Source of the DNA: a virus
Strand: one strand, 5' to 3'
Virus record (IMG/VR): IMGVR_UViG_3300046000_003224
Coordinates: 1 to 24,290 of that record
Length of the DNA: 24,290 nt
Part shown: one piece after another, positions 2,823 to 19,293 of the stretch
Layout of the letters: every line of letters starts with the position of its first letter
Numbering within the stretch: the stretch's first letter is position 1
Made by a program: the position numbers and the translations under genes
The notes under the pieces: model-generated
Told to the model about the DNA's origin: nothing
Seen by the model: the letters and a program-made list of their open reading frames with translations, nothing else
Database searches by the model: none

Positions 2823-4528
2823 TTACCTGTGAGTAGCACGTTAAGAGCTCGAAAAACGCCTGTTCGATTCTCTAGATATATATTGCCGTCCGAGGCAGCA
2901 CTTACCGTAAAATCACCGACGGAACCTGTCGTGCCTGTCAACACACCCGTAGTGACGGCAAAGTTAGCTGCGGGCGACGGCGAAATCGCAACAATAGCCG
3001 ACGCTGGCGTCGCCGTGCAGCGCAGCCAAACATCGCCCGCTGGAGCTGCGCCTGAAGGCGCGGCGGCTGGCACCATAGTCATTATTACCGTTTTCTCCGC
3101 TGTGGGAAGATTAATAGATACTGCCGTGTCATTATTTATTGAAAACCGTCTAGTGAAAATGCCAGTGGGAAGATTAGCGGCGCTAGTAGTGCTGTATCTA
3201 ACCGGAAACAATATAATACCCGACCCAATAGTCTGGTATCTTGTAGCAGGCGATGAGCTAAACGTAGGAATCTGTATTATATTTATGCTCGCAGAGCCAT
3301 CAGCTACGAACGCGCCTACGCCACCGACAGCATTTCTATCCCAATCTTGCACTTTAATCGCGGATACGTTTAGCGTATGTGCCGCACCCGCAGCGCGCAC
3401 AGCGGCGTCATTAGCGCGCGTAACTGCAAGCCCTGAGACTTCTAACTGAGATACGACAGTGCCGCTGAGCGAGATACCATCGCCAGTGACAAAGATAGTT
3501 GCATTCGAATTTGACGTAAAATTCGTGATATTGCCATAAGCGGTATAGTAATCCGAAATTATTTCAATACCGCCGCCGCAGCCATCCGAATAACAGTCTA
3601 TGATACCAAAACTAGCGAACCCCGAGCCCGCCCCGCTAACGTCGCGCGCTAGCAGAAATCTATTATAGTAGATAGAAAAACTGTTGGTTATATACAACCC
3701 GTCTGAGCGTGTTATTCTAAACCCTACAGCATTATTTACGGTGTATGTAATTACATCTAGACTTTGGGACCAGAAAGGCCACCACTGCACTTCATTCCAA
3801 TACTGAACATCAGAACTACGTTCGCATAAGATACCCGTGTAAAGCGGCTGGCCCATTATATGTTGAGCGTTAAGAGTTCCCGCTGACCGCACATAGATAC
3901 CAACATACGGATTGAGTAACACAATATTATATAGCTGAACGTCATACTCAACGCGGATGTCTTCACCGCAAACAAGCGGCGTCCAGCCCGGTGCAGGCAA
4001 CGGTTGATTTGGGCGGTAAGTTCCTATGTTAGTTATATTTACAAATCTTTTTGCCTGACCAACTGATGCGCTGTCACGGCAGAAAAATCCGATGCCTGTG
4101 TGATCTAAATAAAACCAAGTGCCCGTTGTCGGCGGAGTTACTAACGGAATTGGAATTGCGGTCGTAATATTAGGCGCGTCGCCCTCAATAGCCGCGCCTG
4201 CGGAAAAATTTAACTGAGCCGTCATGCGGTATTTACCTGACGGGACGAATAAAGTCTTACCGGTAGAAACAGCATAGTCTATGGCTTTTTGCATATTGAC
4301 GGTATCATCAGTGATGCCGTCACCAACAACGCCAAAATCTTTGGCACTTATTGTGTCTGACAAACGCGACTGAATAGACCTGTCAATTGCCCCAGTGCCG
4401 GGGGGCGAAAAAGGAAGGTTATCTAAGGTTGTCTTTTTAGTGCTTCCCGTTTGAACCAGCGGAATAAGCTCCGTTCCAGTCAAAGGCGTTGAAGCGTCGG
4501 GGAGCTGAGAAATCTTGAGGTTCGGCAT
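2819..4528 (-). CDS. tailspike/tail fibre with pectate-lyase-type beta helix
   Basis: The 569-aa product begins with a short virion-binding type N-terminus (residues 4-28, KISQLPDASTPLTGTELIPL), common in phage tail fibres. Residues 64-102 carry the DFGVVGDGITDDT...PSGKYRM signature of the pectate lyase 3 / right-handed beta-helix fold. The body to about residue 480 is rich in Ile, Asn, Gly and Tyr as expected for stacked beta coils, and the last ~90 residues form a separate Ala/Thr/Ser-rich C-terminal part. Such proteins bind, and often cleave, surface polysaccharide. Catalytic residues cannot be assigned by eye. The gene is visibly more AT-rich than the portal or terminase genes, which suggests exchange of a host-range module. 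An AAGGAT site precedes the ATG. Confidence 0.85.
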   Translation of the reverse strand: MPNLKISQLPDASTPLTGTELIPLVQTGSTKKTTLDNLPFSPPGTGAIDRSIQSRLSDTISAKDFGVVGDGITDDTVNMQKAIDYAVSTGKTLFVPSGKYRMTAQLNFSAGAAIEGDAPNITTAIPIPLVTPPTTGTWFYLDHTGIGFFCRDSASVGQAKRFVNITNIGTYRPNQPLPAPGWTPLVCGEDIRVEYDVQLYNIVLLNPYVGIYVRSAGTLNAQHIMGQPLYTGILCERSSDVQYWNEVQWWPFWSQSLDVITYTVNNAVGFRITRSDGLYITNSFSIYYNRFLLARDVSGAGSGFASFGIIDCYSDGCGGGIEIISDYYTAYGNITNFTSNSNATIFVTGDGISLSGTVVSQLEVSGLAVTRANDAAVRAAGAAHTLNVSAIKVQDWDRNAVGGVGAFVADGSASINIIQIPTFSSSPATRYQTIGSGIILFPVRYSTTSAANLPTGIFTRRFSINNDTAVSINLPTAEKTVIMTMVPAAAPSGAAPAGDVWLRCTATPASAIVAISPSPAANFAVTTGVLTGTTGSVGDFTVSAASDGNIYLENRTGVFRALNVLLTGN

Positions 4529-4542
4529 TCAAGTTATCCTTG

Positions 4543-4848
4543 TCAGACGTAATAACTGACGTTGACTTTTGCGCTGGCCGTCGTCTCAATGAATTTGATA
4601 CGGCTTAAATCGCCATCGTATTGGAATGGCACACCAGCAACTAGAAGCATACCGACGCTTGCAGTCGGGTCCGTGCCATCGTCGCGCCAGCGAACATTCT
4701 GCGTTTCGGCGACAATAATAGCAAAATTAGCCTTAGTGGCTGATCCATTTGGGGTTTGAGTCGGAACAGTGAGCCCTGTAGCTGAAGACAGGCTGGAGAG
4801 CTGCTGGTAGCCCATGCAGGTTGTGATACCCTTCACATTCATCGTCAT
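4543..4848 (-). CDS. small conserved phage protein, 101 aa, probable virion component
   Basis: It starts one base after the 485-aa gene's stop, with its ribosome binding site (GGGAGG) formed by that gene's last codons, so the two are probably translationally coupled. Residues 46-82 read ETQNVRWRDDGTDPTASVGMLLVAGVPFQYDG in outline (seen as VRWRDDG, then TASVGM, then PFQY). I recognise this as a recurring short phage protein with a compact beta fold. The C-terminus KVNVSYYV fits a final beta strand. Function is unknown. Position between the beta-repeat protein and the tailspike suggests a tail or head-surface role (inference). Confidence 0.75.
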   Translation of the reverse strand: MTMNVKGITTCMGYQQLSSLSSATGLTVPTQTPNGSATKANFAIIVAETQNVRWRDDGTDPTASVGMLLVAGVPFQYDGDLSRIKFIETTASAKVNVSYYV

Positions 4849-6314: not shown

Positions 6315-6677
6315 TCACGCTAAGAATTTGAGCTTATAAAGCGTGCTGAGATACAGACCAACTATCTCATCGATAGTGTTTTGGATGGCCGTATCATCCT
6401 TTTCACAGACTTTATACCGGATATTTTCAATTTCTTTCAGTGAATCTTCAAGAAATTCGACCACATTGGTTGTTTTCTTGGTAGAATGAAGCGTAATCGG
6501 ACCGATTAAGCCGTGACGACCTTGATATTGCTCGGCCAAATCATCAGCCAAATCAATAATCTTGCCATAAAATGAGCCCAAAGCCTTATGTTTGGCGTAA
6601 GAGCGTGTGTTTAAATGCACGGAATGCGTGACATCCCGCGCCAAAAACAAATGCCCGATCAAATCAGCGCAGCTCAT
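6315..6677 (-). CDS. small helical phage protein, resembling DUF5856/ferritin-like family
   Basis: The 120-aa product starts inside the portal stop codon (ATGA overlap), which implies coupled translation. The sequence looks all-helical: LIGHLFLARDVTHSVHLNTRSYAKHKALGSFY is followed by LADDLAEQYQGRHG, then two further helices ending YKLKFLA. The regularly placed His, Asp and Glu (GHLF, RDVTH, HKALG, DLAEQYQGRHG) recall four-helix-bundle, Dps/ferritin-like proteins and the phage family DUF5856. The family match is from memory of the pattern and the function is not established. Its place right after the portal suggests a virion or head-to-tail accessory role, but metal binding or DNA protection is also possible. 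Confidence 0.7.
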   Translation of the reverse strand: MSCADLIGHLFLARDVTHSVHLNTRSYAKHKALGSFYGKIIDLADDLAEQYQGRHGLIGPITLHSTKKTTNVVEFLEDSLKEIENIRYKVCEKDDTAIQNTIDEIVGLYLSTLYKLKFLA

Positions 6678-8806
6678 TGCTCAATCCCCGGTAAAGCCTG
6701 TGCCGACGGCATGTTTGGCACGATGTCGCCCATGTCGATTGCCGCAGCGATGGTTCCCTGCACGATGTCCTGTATCTGTTCAGGCGTCATGGCCGGCTGC
6801 GTGACTTGAATACGCTTCGTCTCGGCTTCGTAAGCCTTGATCTGGCTGTTCTGTTCGTCAATCGCCAGCTTTTGCATGTCATAGGACTGCTGAAGCTGCT
6901 GGATCAGCGCCGTCGTCTGCTCCATCTGGTTCGCCATATCATTCATCTGAGCGCGCATCATCTGCGCTTCCGGCGACTCGTCAGTTTTTTCCAGAACCTT
7001 CGGGTCCAGAATACGAGCGAACCGCGCCGCCATTTCCTGCGCGCCCGGCCAATCCATGTTCTTGATGAACAGATCGCCCGCCACAGACCAGAGCTGCGGA
7101 TTTGACTGCAAGATCATGGACATGCCGTCCATGGCTTCCTGCCGCTTGGTCATGTAGCTAGGGCCGGTCGTGACCATTACATCGTAAAGACCGACGTTCG
7201 GGTTATAAATCTTGTCGATTGTCTCGCCCGTGATCGGGTCCTTAATGACGCGCACGGCTTCCGGTTGCGTCGGATTGATCTTCACCATTCCGATCTCGCC
7301 GTCGATACCTACAATGCGAGCCACCCGCTGTGTGTCGTAAATCTTCGGGATAAGGTCAACCAACTGCCGCGTGATGTATCGAACCGCACGGCTCATGTTG
7401 TCTACATAGTGAAACGTAGACGTGTCGCCTTGCCGCTCCCGTGCCAGAATAGCGCGACCCGTTCGTTCGTTGCTGGTAGCGCCAATAGAACTGTCGTATT
7501 GACCCGTGGTCGCTTTGATGTCTTCGCCTGCGCCCATCTTGGCTTGGATAAGCCCAGTTTGGGCCATCGGCGGCTGAGCGCGTTCCGGTAGTGGGAGAGT
7601 ATTACCAGCCCCGTCGGTGACATCCGGGTTAACCTCCAAATACGGCCAGTTGTTCGTATTGGCCGTTTTCCATTGCATTTCATACCCTTCGAACTGGCCG
7701 CCGTAGCCGATGAAGGGGGCTTTCGGGGCCAGCGCCAGCATTTCTGCCTCTTGGCTAACCCAGTAATTATACATGCGCTGCGCGTCTTTCGCGTTGCGCA
7801 CCAGACCGCTGATGTAGAGCTGCCCGTCTACCTCGAATTCGTTGCCGATGACGCGCACGACCGGTATGTTCTTACCCGCCCAGTCGCGTTCCTCCAGCAC
7901 CTCATAGCCGTTCGTCTTCAGCCACTTGACCTGCCGGCGGTCGCTCTCGCGCGAGCGCAGCGGCTTGCCATAGGCGGCCTTCAGCCGACGGTCCTCGGGC
8001 GTGCCGTCGAACGCCGTGATGTTATCTGGGTAAAGATTAAGCGTGTGCTTCTTCTCTTCAACGTAGAAATATTCAGCGATGCGGATGGTTTCCTGGCTCA
8101 TCCACATACTGAGCATCTGGTCGCCCACGCCCTGCGCCATCATTGTCGAGATGGGCGTCGCGTCGGGGTAAAGCCGCTCATATTCCTTCTTGGGAACGTC
8201 TTCCGTGATGAAGCAATACCGCGCGTCCGAGCCGCACGGATCCTCGATCATCGGGTCCATATAGACCGAGAAGCTGTTACGAACGCGGACGATCTTGATG
8301 TCCTGATCGAAGCTGTCCTCGCGGCAATACTCGGTAATCAGCCGGATATAGCCCTCGCCGTATGTGACTTGGTTGTCGCAGGCCGTATCATAGGCCACGT
8401 CGGCGTCGGACAGATATTCGATGTGCTTGATGATGCCGTCGAACACCTCGGCCACGGCCGGATCGGCGTTCTCGTCAGCCGGGATGACCTTGCCCTGCGG
8501 CCGGTTCTGACGCTGCTCGTTGGTCACGAGCCGAACGTGCTGCGGCAGCTTGTTGATGGTCAGGCACGGCCGCGCGTTGATCGTCTGACCCTGCACTGCG
8601 CCCCTGGTCGCCAGCACGTCAGCCGGCCACTGCCACTGGTTGTCGGGCGAGCCCGCCATAAACCGCAGATCGTCCAGCTCATCTTCACGGGTGTCGCTAT
8701 AGGCGGCTTGAGCCACCGTAAAGCGATGGCGCATGGTGGCAAGCCGTTCGTCGCCTTCATCGGCGCTGGCGACCTTCCCTGCGTCTCTTACGTCACTTGC
8801 AGCCAC
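6674..8806 (-). CDS. portal protein, P22-like
   Basis: At 710 aa it is close to P22 gp1 (725 aa). Early residues carry the P22-type landmarks: FMAGSPDNQWQWP near 48-60, then RPCLTINKLPQHVRLVTNEQRQNRP near 78-102. Further on come the stretch around DNQVTYGEGYIRLI and GATSNERTGRAILARERQGDTSTFHYVDN. The C-terminal ~130 residues are helical and rich in Gln, Met and Ala, like the portal barrel. The protein forms the dodecameric DNA channel at one head vertex and docks terminase. The start is a GTG with an AAAGG site upstream; it overlaps the end of the 51-aa gene by 14 bp. Confidence 0.95.
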   Translation of the reverse strand: MAASDVRDAGKVASADEGDERLATMRHRFTVAQAAYSDTREDELDDLRFMAGSPDNQWQWPADVLATRGAVQGQTINARPCLTINKLPQHVRLVTNEQRQNRPQGKVIPADENADPAVAEVFDGIIKHIEYLSDADVAYDTACDNQVTYGEGYIRLITEYCREDSFDQDIKIVRVRNSFSVYMDPMIEDPCGSDARYCFITEDVPKKEYERLYPDATPISTMMAQGVGDQMLSMWMSQETIRIAEYFYVEEKKHTLNLYPDNITAFDGTPEDRRLKAAYGKPLRSRESDRRQVKWLKTNGYEVLEERDWAGKNIPVVRVIGNEFEVDGQLYISGLVRNAKDAQRMYNYWVSQEAEMLALAPKAPFIGYGGQFEGYEMQWKTANTNNWPYLEVNPDVTDGAGNTLPLPERAQPPMAQTGLIQAKMGAGEDIKATTGQYDSSIGATSNERTGRAILARERQGDTSTFHYVDNMSRAVRYITRQLVDLIPKIYDTQRVARIVGIDGEIGMVKINPTQPEAVRVIKDPITGETIDKIYNPNVGLYDVMVTTGPSYMTKRQEAMDGMSMILQSNPQLWSVAGDLFIKNMDWPGAQEMAARFARILDPKVLEKTDESPEAQMMRAQMNDMANQMEQTTALIQQLQQSYDMQKLAIDEQNSQIKAYEAETKRIQVTQPAMTPEQIQDIVQGTIAAAIDMGDIVPNMPSAQALPGIEQ

Positions 8807-13622: not shown

Positions 13623-13780
13623 TCGACCTGGAAATGGACACGCGGGCGCTAGAGGCCCTGCTAGACTATCTGGCGCTACAGCCCCGGCCGGGGCTTGTAG
13701 ACGAAGCCTATATGGCCCTACGCGAGGCGCATGACAACGCCGCGGAGGATTACTGGATAGGAGTGTGGAATGGAAACTGA
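13619..13780 (+). CDS. small early protein, 53 aa
   Basis: The frame starts with ATG at 13619, overlapping the preceding stop as ATGA, and ends at 13780, overlapping the next gene by 11 bp. Both ends are therefore tied into the operon. The product reads MIDLEMDTRALEALLDYLAL, then QPRPGLVDEAYMALREAHDN and AAEDYWIGVWNGN. It is acidic and helical with a Trp-rich C-terminus. The upstream ribosome binding site is weak (GAGGC near 13606), which fits re-initiation after the preceding gene. I do not recognise a family. Confidence 0.6.
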   Translation: MIDLEMDTRALEALLDYLALQPRPGLVDEAYMALREAHDNAAEDYWIGVWNGN

Positions 13781-14063
13781 ATATTTCTTCGACGAATTGC
13801 AAATCCTGCCCGGCGCATGTCTGTTCGCGTCCGGCACGGCAACCGTCGCCTATGAGATAGGCGAGCCCGAGCCTGATGTCGGAATCATGTCGCGCTACGT
13901 TGAGGCTATCGAGGTGCTGTCGATTGAACTGGACCCTTACGAATTTGACGATAAGGGCGTGGTGCTGGCCAAATCCGATCCGCTCTACGGTCTGATAGAG
14001 GCGGCGTTGCACAAGGGCGATAGACTCCGCGAGCATTGTATCCAAGACCAGGAGGCGTGGTGA
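13770..14063 (+). CDS. hypothetical early protein, 97 aa, acidic
   Basis: The ATG follows AGGAG inside the end of the 53-aa gene. The protein is acidic, with GEPEPDVGIMSRYVEAIEVLSIELDPYEFDD forming its centre (alternating strand and loop) and a helical C-terminus (LIEAALHKGDRLREHC). It resembles short phage proteins of unknown function that begin METEYFF/MSEYFF, but I cannot name a family. Its stop TGA (14061-14063) overlaps the first base of the next ATG, so it is directly coupled to the tandem small-gene array that follows. Confidence 0.7.
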   Translation: METEYFFDELQILPGACLFASGTATVAYEIGEPEPDVGIMSRYVEAIEVLSIELDPYEFDDKGVVLAKSDPLYGLIEAALHKGDRLREHCIQDQEAW

Positions 14064-14347
14064 TGAGTAACGACATTGTAGAGCGGCTGCTAATTTGCGC
14101 GAAATACGATCCTTATCAAAAGGAAGCAGCCGACGAAATCACCCGACTCCGCGCCGAACTCGCCGCCGCCAACGCACGCGAGCAGGAAGCGGCGAAGGCG
14201 CTGCAGGAGCATGTATTCCGCGCATTCCAAGAGGGATTCAACTCATCACTAAGTTACATGGGCGCATACGACATGGCAGACGCTTGGGAAATGTCTGACG
14301 CCAAAGCTCGCATCGACACCTTTCTGAAAGGAGGCGGGGGTGAGTGA
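14063..14347 (+). CDS. array gene 1: helical protein with RIDxxLKG C-terminus, 94 aa
   Basis: The start is ATG at 14063, which has GGAGG upstream and overlaps the previous stop; the upstream GTG/ATG options lack a good site. It begins MSNDIVERLLICAKYDP, followed by KEAADEITRLRAELAAANAR and EQEAAKALQEH, a coiled-coil segment. It ends in ARIDTFLKGGGGE. The pattern MSDIVERL...AADEITRLRAELAAA...ARIDAxLKG is familiar from many phages of Proteobacteria and is not characterised there. This is the first of five adjacent genes sharing the C-terminal signature. Its last codons (AAAGGAGGC) form the ribosome binding site of the next gene. Confidence 0.8.
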   Translation: MSNDIVERLLICAKYDPYQKEAADEITRLRAELAAANAREQEAAKALQEHVFRAFQEGFNSSLSYMGAYDMADAWEMSDAKARIDTFLKGGGGE

Positions 14348-14549
14348 CGAACTTCGCGGCGTCAGCTACTACATGCGCAAAGCCTATGACGCAGAGATAG
14401 AGCTAACCGCCGCCCGCGCCGAACTCGCCGCCGCCCGAGAGTTGCTGCGGGAGGCGCGGCCGCGCTGTGACGTTCCTTCGTTCTTGAATGATGACTTGTG
14501 CGCCCGCATCGACGCCGCGCTGAAAGGAGGGGAGGATGCGCAAACCTAA
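14340..14549 (+). CDS. array gene 2: helical protein with RIDAALKG C-terminus, 69 aa
   Basis: It starts with GTG at 14340, eight bases inside the end of array gene 1, behind AAAGGAGGC. The protein begins MSDELRGVSYYMRKAYDAEI and continues ELTAARAELAAARELLREAR, a coiled-coil helix very similar to genes 1 and 4. It then has a short Cys-containing spacer (RCDVPSFLNDDLC) and CARIDAALKGGEDAQT. Of the five array proteins it has the most divergent ending, because the overlap with gene 3 is 14 bp and in a different sequence (ATGCGCAAACCTAA). Function unknown. Confidence 0.75.
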   Translation: MSDELRGVSYYMRKAYDAEIELTAARAELAAARELLREARPRCDVPSFLNDDLCARIDAALKGGEDAQT

Positions 14550-14811
14550 AGCAACCAGCTACAGAGAACTCGCAAAGGAGATTGCCGAAGACAGCATCGT
14601 GACGCACGCATTGTCTCGGCTGATCGAGCAGATTGTCGCGGAGGTTCATATGGTCAAGAAGAAAGAGATTGACGAATTGCGTTCCACACTAAAAGCCGCG
14701 CGCCCATACGTCGAGCAAGTGCAAAACTCGAAGCACGAAGCCGCCGCGCGAGACGCATTTGAACTGGCGAATCGCATCGACGCGCTTGTGAAGGGAGACG
14801 GGGATGAGTGA
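14536..14811 (+). CDS. array gene 3: helical protein with RIDALVKG C-terminus, 91 aa
   Basis: The ATG at 14536 lies just behind AAAGGAGGGGAGG, a very strong site made of the last codons of gene 2. The N-terminus (MRKPKATSYRELAKEIAEDS) is unlike those of genes 1, 2, 4 and 5. The second half follows the array pattern: EIDELRSTLKAARPYVEQVQ, then ARDAFELANRIDALVKGDGDE. The N-terminal part could be an exchanged domain on a shared C-terminal unit. The stop overlaps the next start as ATGAGTGA. It may be a helical adaptor, but no activity can be read from sequence. Confidence 0.75.
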   Translation: MRKPKATSYRELAKEIAEDSIVTHALSRLIEQIVAEVHMVKKKEIDELRSTLKAARPYVEQVQNSKHEAAARDAFELANRIDALVKGDGDE

Positions 14812-15241
14812 CGTTGACCGTAAGTTTTCCAATGGGAGCGATTGGGATAACTCGATTGATTGGGACGATGCGTCGGACGGGTCCCAAGGCGGCTATGACC
14901 GACACGGCAACTTCATCACTGCCAATGCGATGATGGAGATTGTGAAGCTGCGCGTAGAGGTGGACAAAGCCCTCACCGACCTTGCCGCAGCCCGCGCCGA
15001 ACTCGTTGCCGCCAAAGCACGAATAGCGGAAGGCGAGCGTGAGTTTCAACGATACATCAGAGAACTCGACAAATGCACCGAGCGTGCCGAAGCAGCCGAA
15101 GCGCGCGAGCGGGAGGCGGCGGAGTTGCTGAAGGAGGCGCGCGAATATGTGCGCGAGGTTGCGGCTGTCACGCTGGATGAGGAGGATTGCGAATGGCTCG
15201 CCCGCATCGACGCTTTTCTGAAAGGAGACGGGGATGAGTGA
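14804..15241 (+). CDS. array gene 4: long coiled-coil protein with RIDAFLKG C-terminus, 145 aa
   Basis: The longest member of the array starts MSDVDRKFSNGSDWDNSIDW, an acidic, Trp-bearing segment of about 45 residues absent from the others. A long coiled coil follows (TDLAAARAELVAAKARIAEG, then YIRELDKCTERAEAAEARER), then AAELLKEAREYVREVAAV and WLARIDAFLKGDGDE. The upstream site GGGAGACGGGG and the eight-base ATGAGTGA overlap with gene 3 are the same as at the next junction. The Ala/Glu/Arg repeat character means similarity searches need composition filtering. Function unknown. Confidence 0.75.
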   Translation: MSDVDRKFSNGSDWDNSIDWDDASDGSQGGYDRHGNFITANAMMEIVKLRVEVDKALTDLAAARAELVAAKARIAEGEREFQRYIRELDKCTERAEAAEAREREAAELLKEAREYVREVAAVTLDEEDCEWLARIDAFLKGDGDE

Positions 15242-15386
15242 CAACCAATATACAGTCGTTTTCGACGGCGGCATTCGCGAGATCGTTTTGCGGGAGCTTC
15301 TGCTTAAAATTCGCAACGACTATTCGGCGGCGCTGATGCCGGAAGACATTGCCAATATCGACGCGGCACTTAAAGGAAATGAATGA
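15234..15386 (+). CDS. array gene 5: shortened member, 50 aa
   Basis: ATG at 15234 sits in the ATGAGTGA overlap with gene 4, behind AAAGGAGACGGGG. The 50-aa product reads MSDNQYTVVFDGGIREIVLR, ELLLKIRNDYSAALMPEDIA, NIDAALKGNE. It keeps the MSD start and the C-terminal (N)IDAALKG signature but has lost the central coiled coil, so it looks like a reduced array member. It ends in an ATGA overlap with the next gene. The identical junction with gene 4 supports it being translated in spite of its size. Confidence 0.7.
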   Translation: MSDNQYTVVFDGGIREIVLRELLLKIRNDYSAALMPEDIANIDAALKGNE

Positions 15387-15568
15387 TGGGAAAAATGAAA
15401 GTGCTTTGGGAAGAACTATCGAACCTGCGCGATGTTGTGCGCTTGCTGTCAGACGACGCCTTGCAGCTTATGCTAGACGCCGACGCGGACCCATACCGCG
15501 GCGCAGTCATACAGGCTGAGATACAGCGCCGGGAAGAGGAGAGCGCCCGTGTGGAAGGTCACGCCTAG
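15383..15568 (+). CDS. small early protein, 61 aa
   Basis: It starts with ATGATGGGA at 15383, overlapping array gene 5 by four bases, with AAAGGAA nine bases upstream. The protein reads MMGKMKVLWEELSNLRDVVR, then LLSDDALQLMLDADADPYRG and AVIQAEIQRREEESARVEGHA. It is helical and acidic; ADPYRGAVIQAEIQRRE resembles short phage proteins of unknown role. It does not carry the RIDxxLKG ending, so it marks the end of the array. It overlaps the next gene by 20 bp. Confidence 0.7.
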   Translation: MMGKMKVLWEELSNLRDVVRLLSDDALQLMLDADADPYRGAVIQAEIQRREEESARVEGHA

Positions 15569-15980
15569 TCAAGTCACCTGGAATGTAGAGAGCCGGTCTA
15601 TCACTATCCACGGCCTTAATGGCAAGCCGTGGGCGCGCATCCACCTGCCCTTGGCCGATGATCGCGCCATCATAACGGCCGGCTATGCCCTAAACTTTGC
15701 AACGAAAGAGCCCGAAAATGCGAGACGAAACGCCGCCCACCATCCACGCAGAACGGATGGAGCAACAACGCCAGATTCGGAAGATGGTAGAAGAGGCCGC
15801 AAAGGCGCTTCACACGACGCCCGACGCCCTGATCTGTCACGACCGAACGTCGTGGAAAGTGTCAGTGCGAGACGAGATAATGTGGCGCGCCAGGCGGGAG
15901 CTAAAAGCAAGCTATCCGACGATAGCGGGCGTCTTCCGGTACAATCACACGGCGGTCATGGCGGCGGTGAGGCGATATGA
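15549..15980 (+). CDS. hypothetical protein, 143 aa, with doubtful C-terminal half
   Basis: It starts with GTG at 15549 behind GAGGAGAG. Residues 1-58 look like a normal compact protein: MWKVTPSQVTWNVESRSITI, then HGLNGKPWARIHLPLADDRA and IITAGYALNFATKEP, a beta-rich domain. From about residue 58 the composition changes abruptly to Arg, Gly, His, Ser and Asp with no hydrophobic core. This part (15718-15980) is read from DNA that also encodes the DnaA-like protein in another frame. The natural gene probably ended near 15720 and has lost its stop, or a frameshift has extended it. A truly dual-coded extension is possible but less likely. Confidence 0.5.
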   Translation: MWKVTPSQVTWNVESRSITIHGLNGKPWARIHLPLADDRAIITAGYALNFATKEPENARRNAAHHPRRTDGATTPDSEDGRRGRKGASHDARRPDLSRPNVVESVSARRDNVARQAGAKSKLSDDSGRLPVQSHGGHGGGEAI

Positions 15981-15990
15981 AAGACGTTGA
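15718..15990 (+). CDS. DnaA domain IV-like DNA-binding protein, 90 aa
   Basis: The chosen ATG is 15718; an in-frame TTG at 15697 would add seven residues. Residues 1-30 form a helix (ERMEQQRQIRKMVEEAAKAL). The rest matches the C-terminal DNA-binding domain of DnaA: HTTPDALICHDR (counterpart of the 'V..ED' segment), then ARRELKASYPTIAGVFRYNHTAVMAAVRRYE in outline, where YPTIAGVF and NHTAVMAAVRRYE correspond to the DnaA signature helix (DHTTVLHAVRKIE type). The AAA+ domain is absent. Similar stand-alone domains occur in phages and may mark a phage origin or regulate transcription. The repeats at 11259-11430 are candidate sites. Both neighbours overlap it. Confidence 0.75.
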   Translation: MRDETPPTIHAERMEQQRQIRKMVEEAAKALHTTPDALICHDRTSWKVSVRDEIMWRARRELKASYPTIAGVFRYNHTAVMAAVRRYERR

Positions 15991-16527: not shown

Positions 16528-18802
16528 TATCTTTCGGCGCTCCTTCTCCGCTTATCCTAGCCCACTCCCGGCGGATGTCAGAATTAGACCATTCCGCCAG
16601 CTCCGGCCGCACGAAACAATGCCGTTTAGTTGGATAATCTTTGGAGTAGATCAGTCCCTTGTCGATCCAACCAGCTTCCTTCAACGCATGAAAAAACGCC
16701 GGCTGCACGATGCGTAGGTTATTCCCCGCGCGGTCATTCAATTCTTTCAGAACTTTGTGCCACGGGCCACCGATAATATCTCTATCAAACGGCGCGACGC
16801 GCTCTTCTATCTCATGGTAGACGTAGCTCTCCGCCTGGCTCATGCCAGTATAAACCAGCTTGCGCTTGTAGTCTGTCATCATCGGCGGCTGTTTCGGGTT
16901 GAACATCGACACGTCACGGGCGTAGAGCCACTGCGCTACAGCTTGGAAACCTCCAGCTTTATACCAGTCCCACATATCTGCGGCTGCATGTTCGCTCATG
17001 CGCGCGGCGGTGGACCATATACAGAACCAGCGCCGATCATCTGAATCAAGCGTAATAGGTGTGTCTTCGTTCGTAAACGCGACCACAAGCAGCCGATTCG
17101 GCATTTCGTAAGGATGCAGACTCTTGCGATTGACGGTCAGCATCTCCGGCGGCGCGGCGATGATGGGTTTCAGCTTGTTCGCCATCGCCCGGCGGTCGCG
17201 CGCCTCGGGCTCTTTCAATTCATTAAGGATGATTACTTCGCTCTGATAGTGATACCCCCAGTCCGAGACGATCTTATCGCCATCGATTATCTTAACATTT
17301 TGTAAACTGTCGCCCGACACGGCCCAAAAGAACGGAGCCCACATAGTATCCTTGCCGGAACCGCCGTGGCCGCCGTGCAGCACGGCATGGTTAATTTTAA
17401 TCTTCGGATTCTTCAGCTTGAACGCCATAACGTCCCAGACGTGCGCAAGCTCTTCCCCGTTAGGAACCAACTTGCGGCAGTGGTCAATCCACCGTTGCGG
17501 ATCGCCGCCGGCGGTTATTGCGGGGCGGAAGTTACGCCAGACATTGCCGTAAACGAGCCCGTCCTTATGCACTTGCCAGTCGTCGCCGGCGGCGTAGGTC
17601 ATGCCGTGCAAGGCGTAGCCGTTGCGTTCCTCGCGGAACATATCGAACCACACGGACGCCTCTAGCCGGCGTTTCTTGCCGTCGGCGGCCTGCGCGTAGC
17701 AGTCGACGTGACGATAGAGCGCGTTGAAGGCTTTGCGGCTCAGTTCCGAACAAGTCTCGCGGTCGAAATAGGCGTCGTCAGTAGCGACGTAAGCGAACCG
17801 CGCGTGCCAGCCGTCGCGCGTCTCGCGCCCAGCCTGCTTGCGCTCTACGGCTGCGATCTGCGGCGTCACGACATCAGGGAATGCCTCCGTCGGTTCGGGC
17901 GGCTGCATCTCGGTCAGCATGTCGGAGAGGATGTCGTCGCGCAGTCCTGGACGGCGACGCGGCCCACCCTGTTCACCCACCCACTCAAGAAAGGCTTCGC
18001 TGGTCAGATGTTCGCAATGGCCGTGAAAACAGAAGAACGCGCGGGACTGCGGCATATACCGCGCCTCGCCTTGACCGTCCGTATGCGCGGCGTGATTCGG
18101 GCATACAACGCCCATCCAGCCTTCGTGATTTACGCGGGACGTAATAAGGTTGTTCTCATTCAGCCACGCCACGACATCATCTTTGCCGCTGTCCGTAAGC
18201 CGTATGTGATGCGTATTCGTCTCGACAGGCTCCAGCGTGACGCCGAACGCTTCGACGATCTGTGCGACGGTAAACTCGCGGGAAGGATCGAACGTCACTT
18301 CGCGGCACACGAAGTCCTCGCGGCCGGGCTTGCGATTTACCGACCCTGGAAGGCGACAGTTGCGCACGGGGTTGGTAGCGCCAGGATCGGTGTAGCCGGC
18401 CTTAGCGAGCGCGGTCAGAAGTGAACAGTGTTCGTCTACGGTAGGCTGGTCGCTGTAAGCATACCAGTATTGAAAATTGCCGGGGCTCGTCTCGACGATA
18501 GCGGTGGGCGCGAGCGGCGGCTCTTTGGACTTGGTGCCGATGTCATCCAGCATCAGGAAAAGAGTGTGCGTGCAATGGTTCCTGGATGCAGATGGCTGGC
18601 CATCCTCAAACCGCTCGCGGATGAAGGATCCCGTATTCAGAAACCAAGACTCGCCCGCGCGGCGCTTGTGCTTGGGATAATACGCCGGCCAAGTGTAGCG
18701 CGGCGAGCCATCCAGATACGTGCGGCCGGTAGCGATTTGCTGCACGATGAGCGCCGTCTCGCCCTCGGGCGCAAGCTGTGTGAAGTATTCAAAGAGTGTC
18801 AT
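16499..18802 (-). CDS. primase-polymerase / SF3 (D5-like) helicase fusion, 767 aa
   Basis: The N-terminal ~200 residues look like an archaeo-eukaryotic primase of the phage/RepB type: LFLMLDDIG (acidic pair near 86-87), ETSPGNFQYWY (104-114), and NCRLPGSVNRKPG (148-160). A central zinc-ribbon-like segment has Cys234, His237, Cys258 and Cys263 (VCPNH ... CFHGHC). The C-terminal part is a superfamily 3 helicase: Walker A GGHGGSGKDT (477-486), Walker B EVIILNE (522-528), and a sensor/arginine region VVAFTNEDTP ... DDRRWF (573-593). It would prime and unwind DNA for the family A polymerase upstream in the operon. It overlaps the HNH gene by four bases (ATGA). Confidence 0.9.
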   Translation of the reverse strand: MTLFEYFTQLAPEGETALIVQQIATGRTYLDGSPRYTWPAYYPKHKRRAGESWFLNTGSFIRERFEDGQPSASRNHCTHTLFLMLDDIGTKSKEPPLAPTAIVETSPGNFQYWYAYSDQPTVDEHCSLLTALAKAGYTDPGATNPVRNCRLPGSVNRKPGREDFVCREVTFDPSREFTVAQIVEAFGVTLEPVETNTHHIRLTDSGKDDVVAWLNENNLITSRVNHEGWMGVVCPNHAAHTDGQGEARYMPQSRAFFCFHGHCEHLTSEAFLEWVGEQGGPRRRPGLRDDILSDMLTEMQPPEPTEAFPDVVTPQIAAVERKQAGRETRDGWHARFAYVATDDAYFDRETCSELSRKAFNALYRHVDCYAQAADGKKRRLEASVWFDMFREERNGYALHGMTYAAGDDWQVHKDGLVYGNVWRNFRPAITAGGDPQRWIDHCRKLVPNGEELAHVWDVMAFKLKNPKIKINHAVLHGGHGGSGKDTMWAPFFWAVSGDSLQNVKIIDGDKIVSDWGYHYQSEVIILNELKEPEARDRRAMANKLKPIIAAPPEMLTVNRKSLHPYEMPNRLLVVAFTNEDTPITLDSDDRRWFCIWSTAARMSEHAAADMWDWYKAGGFQAVAQWLYARDVSMFNPKQPPMMTDYKRKLVYTGMSQAESYVYHEIEERVAPFDRDIIGGPWHKVLKELNDRAGNNLRIVQPAFFHALKEAGWIDKGLIYSKDYPTKRHCFVRPELAEWSNSDIRREWARISGEGAPKDNVYPINRSV

Positions 18803-19293
18803 TTCATAGCCCCGTGGGAGAAATATTGTTTTTCTGCTTTTAATCTTGCTTCTGCGGCGGCTTCTTTGGAGTCAAACAGGCCAAGATGTATCTGTCTATA
18901 ACTATCAAATATATACGCTCGCCATTTGTTTCGCTGAGAGTGCCACGCCACACCCTTATACCCACTGGTGTTGTGTTTGTGCTTTCGCACGTTTTGCATA
19001 TTCTGTTTACGCGTAGCCTCCCGTAAATTTTCTATACGATTGTCCAACTTATCGCCGTTGATGTGGTCTAAATCGCCGCGAGGCCAAACAGCCCATACGT
19101 AAAGCCATGCTAATCGATGCGCCATGTATCGCTTCTTATCTATTGTTATGATACGATAGCCATGGTTTTGAACTGTACCCGCAAGTTCACCCGCACGATG
19201 ACATCCATGACGACCAACAGCAACGCGCCGCGTAAAGTCACCGGATTTTTTGTCGTAAACAAATAACGCTGCCAATCGCTCGCGTGTAATCAC
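18799..19293 (-). CDS. free-standing HNH homing endonuclease with AP2 DNA-binding domain
   Basis: The 164-aa product has an HNH domain with YMAHRLAW (His59) followed by LDHINGDKLDNRIENLR (Asp76-His77, Asn79, Asn85, Asn89). The AP2 domain follows at about 110-158: SGYKGVAWHSQRNKW, then IHLGLFDSKEAAAEARLKAE. This pairing is standard for phage HNH homing endonucleases. It starts at a GTG with AAAGGGG made by the end of the polymerase gene, and ends as ATGA with the primase-helicase, so it is fully built into the operon. The gene is visibly more AT-rich than both flanking genes, consistent with later arrival. No intron or intein boundary is seen. Confidence 0.92.
   Translation of the reverse strand: MITRERLAALFVYDKKSGDFTRRVAVGRHGCHRAGELAGTVQNHGYRIITIDKKRYMAHRLAWLYVWAVWPRGDLDHINGDKLDNRIENLREATRKQNMQNVRKHKHNTSGYKGVAWHSQRNKWRAYIFDSYRQIHLGLFDSKEAAAEARLKAEKQYFSHGAMK

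Follow-up and report, generated by a model that had tools for sequence, protein, structure and literature searches.

A probable hypervariable cassette array of small coiled-coil protein genes in a podovirus-like contig, with repeated seams that encode protein ends and putative ribosome binding sites

The DNA analysed here, hereafter the window, is a stretch of 24,290 bases from an IMG/VR viral record that encodes a P22-type portal, a family A DNA polymerase, a primase and a DUF2800 nuclease of the PD-(D/E)XK type; by its portal, the contig is podovirus-like. On its forward strand, five small genes lie in a chain between two conserved neighbours. Gene A (13770-14063, 97 aa) forms the left edge of this slot; it ends in QDQEAW and has its own ribosome site at its end, without a KG tail. 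Gene B (15383-15568, 60-61 aa) forms the right edge. Between them, g1 (14063-14347, 94 aa) consists of a DIVERL head, an AADEI coil and the tail ARIDTFL followed by KGGGGE; g2 (14340-14549, 69 aa) has a coil and the tail ARIDAAL with KGGEDAQT; g3 (14536-14811, 91 aa) has a different body and the tail NRIDALV with KGDGDE; g4 (14804-15241, 145 aa) combines an acidic head and a long coil with the tail ARIDAFL and KGDGDE; and g5 (15234-15386, 50 aa), the shortest cassette, ends with the tail ANIDAAL and KGNE. An earlier note, made from the sequence, had described these five adjacent genes, and their positions and sizes are confirmed; all five are called by a simple gene caller trained on the large genes of the window. 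Since it is the whole slot between the flanking genes that varies among phages, the interval is better read as 13770-15568.

Several neighbouring genes deserve mention in their own right. At 15697-15987 lies a gene for a 97-aa protein resembling the DnaA C-terminal helix-turn-helix (31.4 bits against a Pfam cut-off of 31.5), and a gene of this kind adjoins the array in related loci too. An HNH endonuclease gene with a weak AP2 match (18799-19293), probably a homing endonuclease, sits between primase and polymerase. The closest named relative of the primase, at 49.5% identity, is that of Podoviridae sp. ctNMl277 (L230, MW202483.1), where a gene annotated as a cytosine DNA methyltransferase lies beyond the DnaA-type gene.

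The C-terminal ends of g1 to g4 read, in order, ARIDTFLKGGGGE, ARIDAALKGGEDAQT, NRIDALVKGDGDE and ARIDAFLKGDGDE, and that of g5 ANIDAALKGNE, so that the shared ending (A/N)(R/N)IDxxxKG proposed in the earlier note is present in all five proteins. The Lys-Gly codons read AAAGGA in four genes and AAGGGA in one, approximately 5-9 nt before the next start. Successive genes are linked by stop/start overlaps of 8, 14, 8, 8 and 4 or 1 nt: GTGAGTGA at g1/g2, 14 nt at g2/g3, ATGAGTGA at both g3/g4 and g4/g5, and 4 or 1 nt between g5 and the next gene depending on the choice of ATG. The three 8-nt overlaps had been described correctly, as had the 19 nt common to the third and fourth junctions (GGAGACGGGGATGAGTGAC). 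Each junction forms a seam comprising tail codons, a putative ribosome site and a start: 14306-14348 at g1/g2 (site AAAGGAGG, 14327-14334), 14502-14544 at g2/g3 (again AAAGGAGG, 14523-14530), 14770-14812 at g3/g4 (AAGGGAG, 14791-14797), 15200-15242 at g4/g5 (AAAGGAG, 15221-15227) and 15351-15388 at g5/B (AAAGGA, 15372-15377), all on the forward strand.

A repeat finder resolves the junction into four copies of a 43-nt unit, of which the second to fourth are 72-88% identical to the first, and the coil DNA into four copies of a 36-nt unit, located at 14135-14170 in g1, 14400-14435 in g2 and 14957-15013 in g4 on the same strand. Within the record, g4 matches g3 at E = 0.001. Over the eight codons that precede Lys-Gly in the five tails, identical codons are used at shared residues in 34 of 46 pairs, whereas codon usage predicts 18.6 (simulated P = 0.0006). 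Together, the 43-nt repeat, the g4-g3 match and the shared codons indicate that the likeness of the tails exceeds chance. The five genes are not plain duplicates: g1, g2 and g4 have coil and tail in common, and g3 and g5 share little except the tail. At the Lys-Gly itself codon choice favours the site: among nine tails, three of them with one shared body, glycine is GGA in all nine and lysine AAA in seven, while in six control genes GGA supplies 8.4% of glycine codons and AAA 26% of lysine codons.

Structural models locate the boundary between these two parts of the tail. The g1 model (42 sequences, mean pLDDT 91.7, pTM 0.59) is a short and a long helix, spanning residues 4-12 and 17-88; that of g4 (14 sequences, mean pLDDT 82.0, pTM 0.52) has a disordered head, a long helix (33-123) and a tail helix (126-139). 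Neither has a folded C-terminal domain, and in both the last six residues, from the lysine onward, fall outside the predicted helix. The tail up to the Leu or Val before Lys-Gly is thus, in the models, part of the helical protein, and the last six residues of g1 and g4 encode what reads as the putative ribosome site of the next gene. The question of whether the signature is a protein tag or a translational signal is answered as both, split at one residue. The earlier proposal that the tag may simply reflect selection on the ribosome site applies to the last residues only; RID precedes the site, which does not account for it.

We gathered 25 related loci by a primase search and marked the slot in each by genes A and B. 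Arrays are present in four, 16 have only 8-80 nt, one carries an unrelated insert and four do not cover both sides. In the array loci L020, L021, L022 and L023 the matched stretches are 1,325, 1,658, 1,861 and 759 nt apart; L020 is identical to the window from A to B, and the other three arrays differ. Primase identity is 93-100% in the four array loci and 63-67% in all 17 other loci that cover the slot. The slot encodes proteins of 126, 249, 95 and 79 aa in L021, of 126, 140, 86, 69 (g2), 91 (g3) and 120 aa in L022, and of 75, 95 and 79 aa in L023, the tail being missing from the 126-, 140- and 95-aa genes. The slot of L040 holds 617 nt with a 179-aa ORF (reverse complement, 3661-4200) that has no Pfam match; by eye it is methyltransferase-like, with a DPPY motif. 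In L023 (reverse complement, 4172-4609), a cassette-like gene (MSEDYARR...EAELKGKT) continues in frame, with no stop, into the conserved MDNPREIL gene, in which AAAGGA precedes an internal ATG; this is possibly a fusion with an internal start.

Comparison of these arrays bears out the earlier idea of a modular family in which unlike heads share one tail. In L021 a different head precedes the same last 68 residues as in g4, and the g4 head continues in L022 into a different coil and a tail, IIDAALKG, with which the 75- and 79-aa genes of L023 end as well. Further afield, a single tail closes three proteins with differing upstream parts, of which two have related heads (the 64-kb contig L052 and the fragments L058 and L059), and L058 and L060 have one head with two tails. 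The contigs L053 (136 kb) and L057 (108 kb) contain DNA like the g1 body (79-80% over 86 nt) and like the g5 tail (90% over 49 nt), and L023 has a 100-nt tail in two copies that are 95% identical.

To locate where identity switches, we counted matching bases at twelve joints in three stretches: the 60 nt ahead of the seam, 28 nt of the seam itself and the 60 nt that follow. Identity switches on, with matches before, in and after the seam respectively, in L052/L060 (15, 28, 60), L058/L060 (16, 28, 60), L021/L023 (15, 24, 60), g5/B against L021 (12, 25, 58) and g1/g2 against the third and fourth cassettes of L022 (18, 19, 59). It switches off at g4/g5 against L021 (60, 28, 20), between the first two cassettes of L021 and L022 (54, 27, 18), and at gene A and the first cassette against L021 (55, 23, 22) and L023 (54, 27, 31). 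Where the same genes lie on both sides the values are 60, 28, 60 (g3/g4), 59, 28, 60 (L052/L058) and 60, 21, 59 (the sixth cassette and B of L022 against the fourth and B of L021); in the last case, a seam only 21/28 alike between the same genes means that the seam itself has changed there. Among the four distinct arrays, 20 of 35 block edges fall from -30 to +12 of a start (5.9 expected; maximum 18 in 20,000 simulation runs) and 28 of 35 in this junction zone or the coil DNA, which is a second place of homology breaks (10.0 expected; maximum 22), although the edges are interdependent and we chose the zones after inspection.

Substitution patterns suggest that some of the cassettes have different histories from their surroundings. 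The gene A protein is 100% identical in the other array-bearing loci, with zero amino-acid change, while 28-37% of its synonymous sites differ between arrays. Against this, all 91 codons of g3 match its L022 copy, L021 and L023 have the 95-aa cassette without any difference, no change separates the last 12 codons of g4 from those in L021, and g2 differs from its near-identical L022 copy by two synonymous changes and one other. Unchanged cassettes beside a diverged gene A indicate that some cassettes moved after the genomes parted. Not all did so. The 126-aa gene of L021 and L022 has diverged at 28% of its synonymous and 16% of its non-synonymous positions, and the synonymous difference in gene B is 12-27%; that not every cassette moved recently counts against the general explanation we favour below.

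Beyond these loci, g1 belongs to a wider family, having the head (MxxDIVERL), coil (AADEIERLRA) and tail (ARxAL or RIDxxL) that delimit it. It aligns with 41 others, among which D, I, V, R and L of the head and A, A, E, I and L of the coil are invariant; g2 to g5 share with it coil and tail, or the tail only. This DIVERLR family occurs in at least 120 viral stretches, and two or three DIVERLR-type heads lie within 700 nt in 14 of 80 loci. Across 84,980 bacterial and archaeal genomes the head pattern is found in nine stretches, four of which (L103, L104, L107 and L108; two Rhizobium, one Hyphomicrobiaceae and one Rhizobiales genome) are member-like by eye, and a genome scan with the family alignment confirmed none of 143 pattern stretches. 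In separate observations, L113 has three consecutive genes with unlike heads that end in ARAALGEK(Q/E) or TRAALGEKQ (6431-7121), and an end domain, HVWRGDWDKLKPETR...GEK, follows two different heads in L113 and L187 (5355-5573).

The dependence of the tail on the next gene was surveyed with a pattern blind to the C-terminus (MxDIVERLR). This gave 102 ORFs; removal of nine bacterial ones and one running off a contig end left 92 viral ORFs, of which 78 were unique. Sixteen of these failed the coil pattern, L128 and L154 among them being member-like by eye, and 62 were kept; both the coil pattern and the tail motif were fixed after inspection. A site core lies in the last 24 nt of 36 of the 49 members whose next start adjoins and of 3 of the 13 for which none does (P = 0.002). 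The tail motif is present in 20/49 and 3/13 respectively (P = 0.34, the sample with no next gene being small), or in 20/45 and 3/17 under a stricter definition of 'adjoining' (P = 0.08). Hence, of the signature that the earlier note asked to see without a downstream gene, the site core declines and the drop in the tail motif is not significant. The family has this motif more often than the other genes at its loci do (23/62 against 77/628; P = 3e-6).

Where a start adjoins and the Leu is recognisable, the site begins at or after the tail Leu codon in 25 of 28 members, and the residues that follow track the overlap: KETGHE, GEVSRD and KGDGDE at 8 nt, GEKE and EPKP at 4 nt. Across adjacent gene pairs of the loci analysed, KG occurs in the last nine residues in 10/60 pairs at 8-nt overlap, 14/279 at 4 nt and 35/596 distant pairs; GDE ends 9/60 pairs at 8 nt and EKE 12/279 at 4 nt. 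Natural examples that lack a following gene are scarce and point both ways: the L057 gene stops at ARIDAFLD, without KG, and L164 retains RAALKGEGG, directly after which, by eye, there is an apparent convergent primase-like gene end.

Database searches place the five proteins in no established family. Against PHROGs, Pfam, NCBIfam and PADLOC, g1 to g5 gave only weak matches (best E approximately 0.0004-0.002), mostly to coiled-coil proteins, and no Pfam, PHROG or NCBIfam family fits them. PADLOC, which covers defence and not counter-defence, had no match at E up to 0.01 for nine of ten proteins; the five matches of g4 are to coil-rich or large proteins (best E 4e-4), and we regard these as coiled-coil cross-matches. 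A tblastn search of named phages returned nothing for g4 and two family members, although low-complexity filtering may hide coils, and 19 records at E of about 1-8 for a third member. Rfam gave nothing at the gathering threshold, and the best Foldseek match of the g1 model in the PDB had E = 6.8.

What we observe directly is the anatomy of the array, a codon choice favouring the site, the exchange of cassettes and half-cassettes, and breaks clustered at seams and coils. We consider it likely that these genes form a hypervariable cassette array encoding small coiled-coil proteins, probably early ones, and that its seam has three roles. Each protein would consist of head, coil and tail, the tail DNA being a seam of about 30-45 nt. 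The first seam codons (ARIDxxL, or ARAAL in relatives) would form the last turns of the helical protein; the last codons (KG, then GGGE, DGDE or NE) would supply the Shine-Dalgarno sequence and start of the next gene, which would consequently dictate the final residues; and the seam would act as a join. Because it is alike in otherwise unrelated cassettes, recombination could join them and the product would still be translated. The GC-rich coil DNA would be a second exchange point, swapping heads against tails. The helix end, the hidden ribosome site and cassette exchange are well supported. Further steps are conditional: ribosomes would use the putative site, exchange would pass through the seam itself as a recombination linker, and the variable heads may act on targets in the host or in rival phages, the hypervariable content and the empty slot in relatives being consistent with candidate host-takeover or counter-defence genes.

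The main rival to the seam as a recombination point is ordinary phage mosaicism, in which joining is random, only joints that leave genes intact survive, and the seam is kept for translation and is no recombination site. Breaks at gene borders are expected from ordinary mosaicism as well; some exchanged joints have seams only 19/28 or 24/28 alike, the former (g1/g2 against L022) also counting against our reading; and a site and start codon alone would hold much of the seam alike. We nevertheless find this account somewhat doubtful, since identity at several joints starts within the seam and not at scattered positions, the synonymous tail codons before the site are too alike, and other breaks form a second class, inside genes and in the coil DNA repeats. 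A model of simple tandem duplication, in which copies of a single ancestral gene diverged and phages exchanged nothing, would account for the coil and tail DNA common to g1, g2 and g4 and for the doubled tail of L023, but close relatives carry different cassettes in the same slot and identical cassettes occur in phages with diverged flanks. As the sole explanation it is contradicted by cassette exchange and highly improbable, although duplication may still add copies.

Two further alternatives concern the tail alone. Were the whole signature a translational signal only, convergent at each junction, the site core should depend on an adjoining gene and the last residues should follow the overlap class, as both do, and KG is missing where no gene adjoins in the L057 gene and in the Ea22 genes of SE1 and mEpX1 (see below). 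However, RID and ARAAL precede the site, codons there are shared beyond codon usage, and whole cassettes are shared with their tails by descent, so that this reading is already unlikely. We think it very unlikely that the entire tail, including KG(D)GDE, is a docking tag bringing different heads to one partner. The RID..L residues are common to unlike heads and the motif is enriched in the family, but in g1 and g4 the predicted helix stops short of the last six residues, and these are encoded by ribosome-site codons and vary with the overlap; a docking partner for the helical part alone is conceivable. Returning to the three-role seam, further observations count against it: the seam between the same genes of L021 and L022 is alike at only 21/28 positions, a site-like core also lies in the last 24 nt of many other genes at these loci (326/628), KG can persist without a next gene (L164; lambda Ea22), and members lacking an adjoining gene have the tail motif less often, a difference short of significance.

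A comparable ending has been described in enterobacterial phages: all Ea22 proteins compared by Dydecka et al. (PMC7093339) end in K/R-G-E, the significance of which is given there as unknown. After the window analysis we surveyed 22 phages chosen by hand among the matches listed (60 of 156), leaving out Shiga-toxin phages, dropping L251 (a broken gene) and adding lambda; in HK022 the next ORF is unannotated, and in MG40 the ATG after the stop was used in place of the annotated start 41 nt upstream. Ea22-like genes end in KGE in 14 of the 22, and all 19 phages with an adjoining ORF have a ribosome-site-like stretch of at least 4 nt before it, a typical junction being ATCAAAGGAGAG TGA n ATG. 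In these 19 there are 15 distinct strings in the stretch preceding the ending and again 15 at the start of the next protein, some of them related. Where no ORF adjoins, lambda Ea22 has KGE (L232:1048-1100, the other phages being L233-L254; no ORF of at least 25 codons starts there) and SE1 and mEpX1 do not. Eae-type neighbours end in (L/I)RKG and three residues in 10 of 10 cases, the DNA reading AAAGGAG in nine of them and AAAGGGG in the tenth. In the phages examined, the +GE ending of Ea22 overlaps the putative ribosome site of the adjoining gene, as read from the DNA. We did not find this link in the open-licence literature, nor by a term search of PMC7093339 and PMC10834534.

It is possible, and we suggest it only tentatively, that phages possess a general, integrase-free cassette system for small early genes built on a seam of about 30 nt. 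If so, the seam would serve simultaneously as protein end, ribosome site, start codon and recombination site; a head of any kind could be inserted before any gene and be immediately expressed, and homologous recombination would make arrays grow, shrink and reshuffle. The endings LKGDGDE, ALKETGHE, ALGEKE and ALEPKP would then be parallel forms of a single device, along with AGIRIKGE and LRKGGxQ from enterobacterial phages, and many of the C-terminal motifs conserved in uncharacterised phage proteins would be ribosome sites in disguise. A simple rule for such motifs in small phage proteins is to check for the ribosome site of the next gene before anything else. The +GE end of Ea22, a published open point, gains a directly testable answer, and a previously unlisted phage protein family is now delimited. 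Protein sequence, translation and recombination would here be bound together in one short stretch of DNA.

The array has partial analogues among known phage systems. The boundary or linker sequences of lambdoid phages are short, shared, situated at gene borders and proposed as recombination points; unlike them, the array seam encodes a protein end and a ribosome site and recurs within one genome. The interlinked genes of the lambdoid nin region (PMC8022706, citing Kroger and Hobom 1982 and Cheng et al. 1995) are likewise tightly packed, small and early, with ATGA-type overlaps, but the portion of that paper available to us describes no shared protein tail or repeated seam, the array overlaps are mostly 8 nt, and no PHROG or Pfam match of g1 to g5 points to nin genes. 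Domain mosaicism as described in PMC10684548 similarly involves recent exchange and fragments common to unrelated proteins, but concerns fragments of at least 50 aa in named functional classes, whereas the array consists of very small unnamed proteins and its exchange seam doubles as a putative ribosome site. A further likeness is to Ead/Ea22 of lambdoid and other enterobacterial phages (PMC7093339 and PMC10834534), which are also mosaic genes, lie in the early region and have a conserved K-G-E end; the array may follow their plan of N-terminal part, coiled coil and variable part, its g1 and g4 models having no folded C-terminal domain. Ead/Ea22 proteins bear the Ead_Ea22 signature, which g1 to g5 lack (Pfam, E up to 1), and the two systems vary at opposite ends: Ead/Ea22 keeps head and coil and varies the C-terminal domain, whereas the array keeps tail and coil and varies its heads, in tandem.
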